64,000 nt of DNA from Prochlorococcus sp. AG-424-P23 (lineage in GTDB: Bacteria; Cyanobacteriota; Cyanobacteriia; PCC-6307; Cyanobiaceae): the NCBI GenBank assembly GCA_003210135.1, contig QCNK01000002.1:41211-105210 (forward strand), read 5' to 3'. Below the pieces are notes generated by a model. It had not been told where the DNA came from, did no database searches, and saw only the letters and a list, made by a program, of their open reading frames with translations. This document shows positions 9,410 to 14,726 of this stretch, one piece after another; within the stretch, counting starts at the first letter, position 1; every line of letters starts with the position of its first letter. A program made the position numbers and the translations under genes.

Positions 9410-10195
9410 GTGAATAATAAGCTCTCCTTAAAAAATATTAATGTCAAATATGGAGAGAGCCTAGCTTTAAAATCAATAAACTTGGATATTTACAAAGGTG
9501 AATTTGTAGTCCTTCTTGGATCTTCTGGGGCAGGTAAATCAACTTTACTAAGAACAATAAATCAATTGAATCCATTAACTTCAGGAGAGTTAGATTTTTT
9601 TGATTTAGGAAAAATAAGAAATAAAAAAGATCTTCAGAATTTAAGAAAAAAAACTGGGATGATATTTCAACAACATCAGTTGATTGAGAGAAATACTGTT
9701 TTCCAAAATGTTTTAACTGGTCGACTTGGATTTCATTCATTACTTAGAAGCATTTTACCTCTTCCAAAATTTGATCAAGAACTTGCTCTCGATTGTATAG
9801 ATAGAGTTAACCTCTTAGACAAAGCGCTTGTAAAAGTAAAAGAATTAAGCGGAGGACAACAACAAAGAGTTGGAATTGCTAGAGCTTTAGCTCAAAATCC
9901 TTCGTTGATTTTGGCAGATGAACCAATAGCTAGTCTTGACCCAAAAACTTCCCATCAAGTTTTATCGATGCTTAAAGATATTTGTAAGAAAGATAATATA
10001 TCAGCATTAACTAGTCTTCACCAAGTTGATTTTGCTAAAGAATATGGAGATAGAATTATTGGCTTAAGTCATGGGAAAATAGTTTTTAATGGTAAATCAG
10101 ATCAACTTTCAGACGAGATTTTAAAAAATATTTATTCATCTTCACCAATAACAGAAGAAACAAATTTTACCTCAAATGAAGTGGTAATGGTTTAA
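9410..10195 (+). CDS. ptxA: phosphite/phosphonate ABC transporter ATP-binding protein PtxA (PhnC family)
   Basis: ATPase subunit of the importer. Walker A GSSGAGKST is at residues 37-45, the Q-loop Gln near 87, signature LSGGQ at 146-150 and Walker B LILADE ending at 171. 261 aa is usual for PhnC/PtxA. The start is GTG at 9410, the only in-frame initiator matching the family N-terminus. It is first in the ptxABCD run behind a Pho box. The assignment to phosphite rather than another phosphonate rests on the ptxD gene three places downstream. Confidence 0.9.
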   Translation: MNNKLSLKNINVKYGESLALKSINLDIYKGEFVVLLGSSGAGKSTLLRTINQLNPLTSGELDFFDLGKIRNKKDLQNLRKKTGMIFQQHQLIERNTVFQNVLTGRLGFHSLLRSILPLPKFDQELALDCIDRVNLLDKALVKVKELSGGQQQRVGIARALAQNPSLILADEPIASLDPKTSHQVLSMLKDICKKDNISALTSLHQVDFAKEYGDRIIGLSHGKIVFNGKSDQLSDEILKNIYSSSPITEETNFTSNEVVMV

Positions 10196-10207
10196 AACCA
10201 CTTCATT
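10175..10207 (+). other. intercistronic hairpin between ptxA and ptxB
   Basis: A perfect 10-bp inverted repeat, AATGAAGTGG (10175-10184) and CCACTTCATT (10198-10207), encloses 13 bases and contains the ptxA stop codon. It is followed by A-rich, not T-rich, sequence, so it is not a classical terminator. In binding-protein transporters such a hairpin often protects or partly separates the segment for the abundant binding protein (here ptxB). Confidence 0.55.
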
Positions 10208-10227
10208 AAAAAAACTTAAACAAAAAA

Positions 10228-11106
10228 ATGAAACTTAAATCTCTTTTAAGCGTTTTTACTATTTCTATTGTGGCGCTTACTTCGGCATGCTCTACGAAAA
10301 ATGCTGGACCAAGTACTGATCCTGATAAGTTAATTGTTGCATTAATTCCTGATGAAAATGCTGCAACCGTTATCCAAGATAATCAAGGTCTAAAAGATTA
10401 CTTAACTGAAGCCTTTGATAAGGAAATAGAGTTAGTTGTTACTACTGATTATTCTTCAATGATTGAAGCAGCTAGAAACGATAGGTTGGATTTAGCTTAC
10501 TTTGGACCTTTATCTTATGTTTTAGCTAAAGCAGTAAGTGATATTGAACCTTTTGCAGCAAGGATTAAAGGAGGAACTAAGACTTATAATTCCTGCATAA
10601 TTGGAAACACTAAAAAAGGTGTTACTAGTTTTGATGATATCAAAGGCACTACTTTTGCTCTTGGAGATCCAGCTTCAACCTCTAGTAGATTATTCCCTGA
10701 GTTAACTCTTGCTGAAAATGGACTTACTAAAGGCAAGGATTTTCAAGGAGTTTTTCTAGGATCACATGATGCTGTTGCCTTAGCAGTTCAAAATGGAAAT
10801 GCTCAAGCAGGAGGAATGGCATGTCCGATTCTTAAATCCCTAAAGAAGAAAGGAGTTATTGACCCTTCTAAAGTAACAACTATTGCTCAATCTTCTCCTA
10901 TTCCTCAATATCCATGGACAATGCGTTCAACTTTATCTCCTGAATTAAAAGAAAAAATAAGAGTTACTTTCTTAGATCTAGATAGTGACAAAGTCCTGAA
11001 ACCTTTTAACGCTGATGGTTTCGCATCTATAACTGATAGTGATTATGACGGTATTAGAAAAGCGGGCAAACTTCTAGGTCTTGATCTTTCTAAGTTTGTT
11101 AAGTAA
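10228..11106 (+). CDS. ptxB: phosphite/methylphosphonate-binding lipoprotein PtxB (PhnD family)
   Basis: Periplasmic solute-binding component. A lipoprotein signal peptide ends at Cys21 (IVALTSAC), which would anchor it to the inner membrane. The mature part has the PhnD-type fold with [12 protein letters not shown], the Ser/Thr-rich ligand loop [11 protein letters not shown], and a helix-capping [12 protein letters not shown]. 292 aa fits. Work on Prochlorococcus PtxB that I recall found phosphite, and more weakly methylphosphonate, as ligands, which would allow one transporter to feed both PtxD and PhnYZ here. Confidence 0.9.
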
Positions 11107-11143
11107 AAAATCACTTTAAAAATACAAATAAAAAAATTATTAA

Positions 11144-13314: not shown

Positions 13315-13332
13315 TCTTAATTATCTTTTCTT

Positions 13333-13351
13333 CTTAAATTTATCTTAATCA
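13333..13351 (+). promoter_or_regulatory. Pho-box-like repeat upstream of phnYZ
   Basis: Two 8-mers with a 3-base spacer, CTTAAATT (13333-13340) and CTTAATCA (13344-13351), are followed 8 bases later by a -10-like TAATAT (13360-13365). The geometry equals the ptxA box. It gives phnYZ its own promoter, as expected because the minus-strand GNAT gene interrupts the cluster. Confidence 0.55.
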
Positions 13352-13386
13352 TAAATGTTTAATATCTTGTTAAGACTTGTATTGAG

Positions 13387-14124
13387 GTGCAATCAGTTTT
13401 GAACAATATAAAATTAAAATTCGATAATGACGGATTTATAGTTAATGAGAACCTAATAAATCAAAGTGATTTAGAGGCAATTGAAAAATGGATTAGTGAA
13501 CTTAACGACTCTAAAGAGGTTAACCATCATTATGAAAAAACAGTTAATGGTAAAGTGCTTTCAAGAACAGAAAACTTTGTAAGCTCGCATACATCTTTTA
13601 GGGAATTTCTTTTAAGTTCATCAATAAAAGATTATTTAACTATGCTATTTGATGATGAACCAATATTATTCAAGGAAAAAATAAATTATAAATACCCAGG
13701 GGGAGCTGGATATGCACCTCATCAAGATGCTCCTGCTTATCCTTTTGGGAAAAAACACATAACAATGCTATTAGCTATAGATGACTCTGATATAAATAAT
13801 GGATGTTTGGAATTTGCAAGAGGTAGAAATAATGAGGGCATAATAAATATTGATGAAAAGGGGTGTATAAATTCACTAACCGCAGAAAAATTTGTTTGGG
13901 AGAAGATACCTCTTAAAAAAGGAGGCGCAGTATTTTTTGATTCTTTTGTTCCTCACAGAAGTTCAACAAATAAATCTAGTCGTCCAAGAAGAGCGCTCTA
14001 TGTTACTTATAATGCTAAAACTGAAGGCGATTTAAGAAAAGATTATTATGACTTTAAAAAGAACTCTCTTAAAGATGGATATGTAAGTTTAATAGGTCAC
14101 TTTGAAGGAGAAACAATTAAATGA
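13387..14124 (+). CDS. phnY: PhnY-type Fe(II)/2-oxoglutarate dioxygenase (methylphosphonate hydroxylase)
   Basis: PhyH-family dioxygenase predicted to hydroxylate the alpha carbon of methylphosphonate to hydroxymethylphosphonate, using O2 and 2-oxoglutarate. The iron triad is His112 and Asp114 (PHQDAPAYP) plus His190 (FVPHRSS), and an Arg around 200-202 (SRPRRAL) can hold 2-oxoglutarate. 245 aa with a GTG start at 13387. It overlaps phnZ by 4 bases (ATGA), a strong pairing signal. The substrate preference for methylphosphonate over 2-aminoethylphosphonate is inferred from the marine Prochlorococcus context. Confidence 0.85.
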   Translation: MQSVLNNIKLKFDNDGFIVNENLINQSDLEAIEKWISELNDSKEVNHHYEKTVNGKVLSRTENFVSSHTSFREFLLSSSIKDYLTMLFDDEPILFKEKINYKYPGGAGYAPHQDAPAYPFGKKHITMLLAIDDSDINNGCLEFARGRNNEGIINIDEKGCINSLTAEKFVWEKIPLKKGGAVFFDSFVPHRSSTNKSSRPRRALYVTYNAKTEGDLRKDYYDFKKNSLKDGYVSLIGHFEGETIK

Positions 14125-14726
14125 AATACAAAACTATTAAAAACTTCAAAAACAAATTACAAAATTCTGATAACAATGAATTTGTAGATTTATTATTTGA
14201 CTTTATTAAGGAGGAAGGAAAAACTAATTATGATGAATCAGTCACTCAATTACAACATAGTCTCCAAACAGCTTCACTCGCTCGCACTGAAGATGGCAGA
14301 AGGCATATAGTAATTGCTTCTTTGTTACACGATATAGGTCATCTTCTAATCGATGAAAATGACTCAAAAAATGATTTCTTAAAAAAAGATCTTAACCATG
14401 AAAATATTGCTTCAAATTTTTTAAAAGATTTTTTCTCTGAAGAAATTACAGAAAGTATTCGCTTACACGTTGTAGCAAAAAGATATTTATGCTCAATCGA
14501 TAATTCTTATTATGAAAGTTTATCTAAAGCATCTAAAAATAGTTTTCAGGTACAAGGTGGTGCTTTAAATAAAGAAGAGATTAATGAACTAGAAAATAAT
14601 AAATACTTCAAAGATGCAGTTCGATTAAGAAAATGGGATGATAGAGGAAAGGTTTCTCTAAAAGAAGTTGAAGAATTAGATACTTATAAAGAAATGATTG
14701 TTGCTGAAAGATTAGCTATCTATTAA
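14121..14726 (+). CDS. phnZ: PhnZ-type mixed-valence di-iron oxygenase (HD domain)
   Basis: HD-domain oxygenase that cleaves the C-P bond of the hydroxyphosphonate made by PhnY, giving phosphate and, from hydroxymethylphosphonate, formate. Metal ligands are visible as His46 (QLQHSLQ), His70-Asp71 (LLHDIGH), His93 (LNHENIA), His116 (RLHVVAKRYL) and a late Asp in LRKWDDRGK. The NYDES segment just before the first His corresponds to the substrate-gating region of PhnZ. 201 aa is the family length. It is translationally coupled to phnY. The 3' end overlaps the convergent osmC gene by 11 bases. Confidence 0.86.
   Translation: MKYKTIKNFKNKLQNSDNNEFVDLLFDFIKEEGKTNYDESVTQLQHSLQTASLARTEDGRRHIVIASLLHDIGHLLIDENDSKNDFLKKDLNHENIASNFLKDFFSEEITESIRLHVVAKRYLCSIDNSYYESLSKASKNSFQVQGGALNKEEINELENNKYFKDAVRLRKWDDRGKVSLKEVEELDTYKEMIVAERLAIY

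Follow-up and report, generated by a model that had tools for sequence, protein, structure and literature searches.

A complete ptxABCD-phnYZ cassette at a second chromosomal site in Prochlorococcus sp. AG-424-P23, where relatives keep only insert edges

We analyzed a stretch of 64,000 nucleotides from the draft genome of Prochlorococcus sp. AG-424-P23 (hereafter the window), which carries the ptxABCD-phnYZ cassette for the use of phosphite and methylphosphonate. The window is part of a 105-kb contig; the draft amounts to 1.45 Mb in 40 contigs and is 90% complete. This is the known cassette of the high-light-adapted clade II (HLII), very probably functionally equivalent to that of strain MIT9301, but located at a second chromosomal site instead of the usual phosphorus island. 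The gene set was already known as Pro-eCAG_013 (PMC10119275); what is new here is a second site with a complete copy, where many relatives keep only broken insert edges. A previous sequence-only reading of this DNA had named a PhnC-type ATPase, a lipoprotein binding protein, a permease, a PtxD dehydrogenase, and a PhnY/PhnZ pair at 9410-14726, which we confirmed gene by gene:

9410-10195, + strand: ptxA, PhnC-type ABC transporter ATPase (GTG start; TIGR02315, 304 bits, above the cut-off)
10228-11106, + strand: ptxB, lipoprotein, predicted phosphite/methylphosphonate-binding protein (lipoprotein signal; TIGR01098, 230 bits, above the cut-off)
11144-11941, + strand: ptxC, PhnE-type ABC transporter permease (TIGR01097, 277 bits, above the cut-off)
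11952-12908, + strand: ptxD, predicted NAD-dependent phosphite dehydrogenase (307 bits to PtxD structures; GxGxxG kept)
13387-14124, + strand: phnY, predicted Fe(II)/2-oxoglutarate methylphosphonate hydroxylase (NF052437, 219 bits; PhyH Pfam)
14121-14726, + strand: phnZ, predicted HD-domain hydroxymethylphosphonate dioxygenase (NF052439, 213 bits, the highest score among three related models)

With all six genes present, intact, and near-identical in protein sequence to their MIT9301 counterparts, the cassette belongs to the Prochlorococcus ptxABCD-phnYZ group. The best solved relatives of PtxD are phosphite dehydrogenases (307 bits, versus 198 bits for glyoxylate reductase), and the alignment with them retains the catalytic R, E, and H, which we take to be Arg237, Glu266, and His292. 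PtxB differs from the crystallized, phosphite-bound PtxB of MIT9301 (PDB 5LV1) at only 2 positions over 271 residues. NF052437, the methylphosphonate hydroxylase model, is the sole strong equivalog match of PhnY, which is 97-99% identical to PhnY in other carriers of the cassette, MIT9301 included. PhnZ aligns residue by residue with the solved PhnZ and TmpB structures, and the phnY and phnZ reading frames overlap by 4 bp. Across 13 other carriers, the nucleotide identity of the cassette is 97-99% with intact reading frames, which excludes a chance origin of the gene set. Three points weigh against the functional assignment. The 219 bits of PhnY fall short of the curated cut-off of 500 for NF052437, the 213 bits of PhnZ fall short of that of 300 for NF052439 (PhnZ1), and PtxD has an Arg at the position of the active-site Lys of P. 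stutzeri PtxD, presumably Lys76 (ALRGFDN versus ALKGFDN). MIT9301 has the same Arg.

The function of the cassette is not a new claim because it has been established for the near-identical genes of MIT9301. This strain grows on methylphosphonate, hydroxymethylphosphonate, and phosphite but does not use 2-aminoethylphosphonate; it excretes excess formate, directs methylphosphonate carbon into purines, and increases phnY and phnZ under phosphate depletion (PMC6581173). Its PtxB has an enlarged pocket and low micromolar affinity for phosphite and methylphosphonate (PMC5700983; PMC10284923). By analogy with MIT9301, PtxABC would import phosphite and methylphosphonate in AG-424-P23, PtxD would oxidize phosphite to phosphate, PhnY would hydroxylate methylphosphonate, and PhnZ would cleave the PhnY product into phosphate and formate. 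The earlier proposal of one importer feeding two reduced-phosphorus routes is supported by this match to the published work and probably applies to the window genome as well. The MIT9301 precedent, which the same reading had named in denying that the system is new, also stands, given near-identical proteins and a published growth phenotype (PMC6581173). Through this trait, methylphosphonate ends up as formate and not as methane; the patchy distribution of the trait has been interpreted as a sign of regional selection.

The cassette is contained in a larger block of nine genes, which includes three additional genes:

12889-13314, - strand: GNAT-family acetyltransferase (Pfam GNAT), antisense between ptxD and phnY
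14716-15117, - strand: OsmC-family protein (Pfam OsmC), antisense, overlapping the end of phnZ
15217-16227, + strand: acr3, arsenite efflux permease, closing the block on the right (TIGR00832, 308 bits, above the cut-off)

The block lies between an aminotransferase gene (7320-8495) and an SDR gene (16314-17018) followed by murE. In MIT9301, MIT9302, and two further genomes (G044 and G019), the aminotransferase and SDR genes are direct neighbors separated by about 30 bp. The other carriers that we examined have the block in a phosphorus island; where their sequence extends far enough, it is located downstream of pstS, phoR, and phoB. Residence in the island beside phoB is typical of the cassette, though not required for membership, and is not seen in AG-424-P23, whose pstS-phoR-phoB region is on another contig (C5) without the cassette. 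The comparison with other HLII genomes that had been suggested earlier returned the same genes at a chromosomal site that differs from those of the other carriers examined. The insert at the second site is delimited by the following features:

8498-9107, + strand: left insert edge, with small open reading frames (ORFs) at 8572-8754 and 8892-9107 and a PHO-box-like stretch around 8799
8876-8886, + strand: left copy of an 11-bp direct repeat, ATATAAAAAAA, read from the sequence; the joint of genome G002 falls here
9209-9298, + strand: conserved membrane micro-ORF of 29 amino acids (MELNTFLLILLVIANFTNLYLTHFKKKKR) upstream of ptxA
16228-16305, + strand: right insert edge, containing the right ATATAAAAAAA copy at 16295-16305

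The left edge (8498-9107) is absent in MIT9301, G044, MIT9302, and G019, and is partly or wholly retained in relatives with a remnant of the insert at this site (scars). The right-edge sequence is likewise present in the scars, and in the phosphorus-island copies the match to it ends after the first 19 bp. The micro-ORF is 94-96% identical to that of most other carriers, with mostly synonymous changes, whereas the flanking DNA is 78-88% identical. It is retained in several scars, and G135 has it on its own at a different locus. We considered whether the location could be an artifact of chimera formation in assembly or amplification, as might be feared from so fragmented and incomplete a draft. 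This is very improbable. Both edges carry second-site sequence common to the independent genomes G131, G139, G002, and G165, and this match of both edges to other genomes at the same site makes misassembly unlikely; moreover, the core flanks are in their usual order on both sides on the 105-kb contig, and the usual phoB/pstS locus, found on another contig, lacks the cassette. Integration linked to a tRNA was rejected because there is no tRNA near the block, the tRNAs of the window being found only at 40 kb. Phage carriage was rejected because PtxD and PhnY had no relative in the viral contigs scanned. Upstream of the aminotransferase gene, in the conserved core flanking the insert, 6457-7284 encodes an ArsM-like methyltransferase (arsenite methyltransferase family, below the cut-off).

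At least 16 relatives keep only the insert edges at the second site, with varying break points. These scars were found by a search with the G002 site, and occupancy was classed for a subset of genomes. The left edge persists to 9364 (G139), 9325 (G131), 9303 (G090), 9141 (G165), 9054 (G228), 8939 (G240), 8887 (G002), 8843 (G170), 8825 (G030), 8803 (G244), 8772 (G017), and 8545 (G059), and the right edges start between 15828, inside acr3, and 16295. None of the scars examined contains ptx, phn, GNAT, or OsmC coding sequence. G178, G191, and G057 follow the phosphorus-island order until shortly before ptxA, where the sequence skips to a point within or immediately beyond the 3' part of acr3. The ptxA upstream region is retained in G061 and G150, including the PHO box in G061; the G139 scar retains this PHO box as well, and G150 carries the cassette in its island besides the second-site remnant. 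The joints 9360/16292, 9318/16187, 9303/16158, and 9297/15828 cannot be derived from one another, which indicates at least four independent deletions. A single shared deletion behind all scars was rejected because the joints are not nested. In trees of the flanks, the window groups with the scar genomes, namely G131, G165, and G002 on the left and G131, G165, G002, G139, and G059 on the right.

Synonymous divergence (dS) of the cassette between the window and the other carriers is 0.018-0.070, with 0.018 to MIT9301. Core-gene dS is 0.086-0.25 for four clean-site genomes (aminotransferase, SDR, murE, and two genes that we take to be lepA and mqo). Because the cassette dS is lower than that of the neighboring core genes, exchange of the block postdates the divergence of the core. 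Upstream of ptxA, the DNA of the window shares 98% identity with the G131 scar and about 89% with the island copies; for the coding part of the cassette, identity to the closest island copies reaches 98-99%.

From these data we infer two possible orders of gain and loss. In the first, the second site received the whole cassette ancestrally as a copied phosphorus-island segment, which was then lost through microhomology deletions, at least four of them independent, and stayed complete only in AG-424-P23, where its coding part would have been refreshed by recombination. We consider this history evenly poised between true and false. The island order kept up to the ptxA upstream region in G178, G191, and G057, the four joints underivable from each other, the presence of a cassette-specific upstream region in so many scars, and the clustering of the window with scar genomes in the flank trees all argue for it, as does the micro-ORF, which travels with the ptx cassette and not with the phnD2C2E2E3-acr3 islands examined. 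However, the lack of any cassette coding sequence in the scars speaks against an ancestral presence, the micro-ORF is also found alone in G135, and the coding region of the window is as near to the island copies as these are among themselves. In the second, the site first held an insert without the cassette, consisting of small ORFs and acr3, and the scars are landing pads; ptxABCD-GNAT-phnYZ-OsmC would have been acquired later from an island-type donor by homologous recombination at the shared edges. Such a later gain is possible, though we would not expect it. It would fit a ptxA upstream region of second-site type next to an island-like coding part (dS of 0.018 to MIT9301), and scars in which ptx and phn coding DNA is never retained. 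Yet no island arrangement with the micro-ORF beside acr3 was seen, the ptxA PHO box is retained in the scars of G139 and G061, and the contrast between upstream and coding DNA may partly reflect rate since non-coding DNA diverges faster anyway.

Searches with PtxD, PhnY, PtxB, GNAT, and OsmC each matched the same 18 of 266 genomes of the genus, so the trait is as rare in Prochlorococcus as previously assumed, and GNAT and OsmC are obligate companions of the cassette within this set of Prochlorococcus genomes. The acr3 gene was found in 47 of the 266 genomes, three of which have fragments only. All nine genes retain length and frame in the 13 other carriers, with nonsynonymous divergence well below dS. 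The GNAT gene and the 3' end of ptxD share 20 bp. The earlier description of one run followed by PhnY/PhnZ holds for the gene order but not for a continuous operon, as the antisense GNAT gene splits ptxD from phnY. GNAT and OsmC may have been mentioned in earlier literature; as constant companions, they are candidate further parts of a well-studied pathway. GNAT could act in phosphonate use, for example, by acetylating aminophosphonates like PhnO or glyphosate N-acetyltransferase (GLYAT). Besides its obligate co-occurrence, GNAT shares a PHO-box-like repeat with phnYZ, and its best solved relative is a glyphosate N-acetyltransferase (2bsw). At the GLYAT substrate site, which we take to comprise Arg21, Arg73, Arg111, and His138, only Arg73 and Arg111 are kept, with Arg21 replaced by Trp and His138 by Tyr. 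A true glyphosate-type acetyltransferase was rejected on account of these two changes of four, for which reason we left the GNAT substrate unassigned. Since the gene was also not found in Synechococcus cassettes, and MIT9301 does not use 2-aminoethylphosphonate (PMC6581173), a role of GNAT in phosphonate use seems unlikely.

The cyanobacterial Pho box has been described as an 8-bp repeat, CTTAACCT, with spacers of 3 bp (PMC1906773). We scanned both strands of the 64 kb for two repeats of the pattern YTTAAYYW-N3-YTTAAYYW with at most one mismatch. Three of the ten matches are located in intergenic regions of the cassette:

9333-9351, + strand: PHO-box-like repeat upstream of ptxA, CTTAACCT TCT ATTAATTT (1 mismatch; kept in all aligned carriers)
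13333-13351, + strand: PHO-box-like repeat in the region from which GNAT and phnY diverge, CTTAAATT TAT CTTAATCA (1 mismatch; reached in 17 of 1000 shuffles)
15153-15171, - strand: PHO-box-like repeat upstream of OsmC, CTTAATCT TAA CTTAATTT (no mismatch; reached in 5 of 1000 shuffles)

Of all matches in the 64 kb, only the repeat before OsmC is free of mismatches. Single PHO boxes are weak in such AT-rich DNA, which counts against reading them as regulatory sites, but all three are conserved across carriers and their combined score was reached in none of 1000 shuffles. PhoB control of the cassette is likely from these patterns, and PhoB would act on each cassette transcript. Neither these PHO-box-like promoters nor GNAT, OsmC, and the unusual location in the chromosome had been noted in the sequence-only reading. 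The block in AG-424-P23 represents one complete copy at the aminotransferase/SDR site, where many relatives keep only scars. A broader view, which we advance tentatively and rate a little below even, is that the trait moves as a PhoB-controlled block of nine genes with two homes, is repeatedly erased at the second, with scars as possible landing pads, and includes GNAT and OsmC as functional parts. The second site and its graded deletion scars make gain and loss readable from genomes, so that turnover can be counted by site and ocean region.

The phnC2-D2-E2-E3 transporter genes and phnYZ were previously published as occurring together only in strain RS01. At least five carriers (G044, scB243_498I20, AG-426-L07, AG-917-B09, and AG-920-M14) have phnD2-C2-E2-E3 directly upstream of the ptx cassette, and the E3 end is visible at the contig edge of scB241_528O2. 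G044 may itself be RS01. The RS01-only statement no longer holds, and mutual exclusion of phnD2C2E2E3 and ptx-phnYZ was rejected given the tandem in five carriers. Because at least five carriers hold both cassettes, the published argument from near-exclusivity that phnC2-D2-E2-E3 has a purpose other than phosphate supply is weakened. Loci with phnD2-C2-E2-E3 directly upstream of ptx-phnYZ include L131, L135, L141, L004, and L012.

Among known systems, PhnY and PhnZ1 of Gimesia maris provide the best-matching family models for PhnY and PhnZ of the window, although the scores, obtained through the models, are below the cut-offs. PhnY-PhnZ-like gene pairs with about 35% identity are also found in many Legionella species (L038-L050, L053, L055, and L077). 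The Pro-eCAG_012 transporter cassette (phnC2-D2-E2-E3) occupies the same island slot beside acr3 but, unlike the cassette of the window, has neither phosphite dehydrogenase nor C-P cleavage genes; it was not found in the stretches of the window genome that were read. Synechococcus cassettes (L015 and L016) share the order ptxA-B-C-D-phnY-phnZ with the window, whereas GNAT and OsmC were not found in them. Their identity to the window is 77-78% for ptxB and ptxC, 54% for ptxA, 44% for ptxD, and 50-51% for phnY and phnZ, and the Synechococcus ptx-phnYZ genes are a mosaic relative to those of Prochlorococcus. The closest comparison is Pro-eCAG_013 of MIT9301, which shares with the window the genes, their order, the GNAT and OsmC neighbors, and acr3, at a dS of 0.018. 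The difference is in the location, as MIT9301 carries the cassette in the phosphorus island beside phoB, phoR, and pstS and AG-424-P23 carries it between the aminotransferase and SDR genes.

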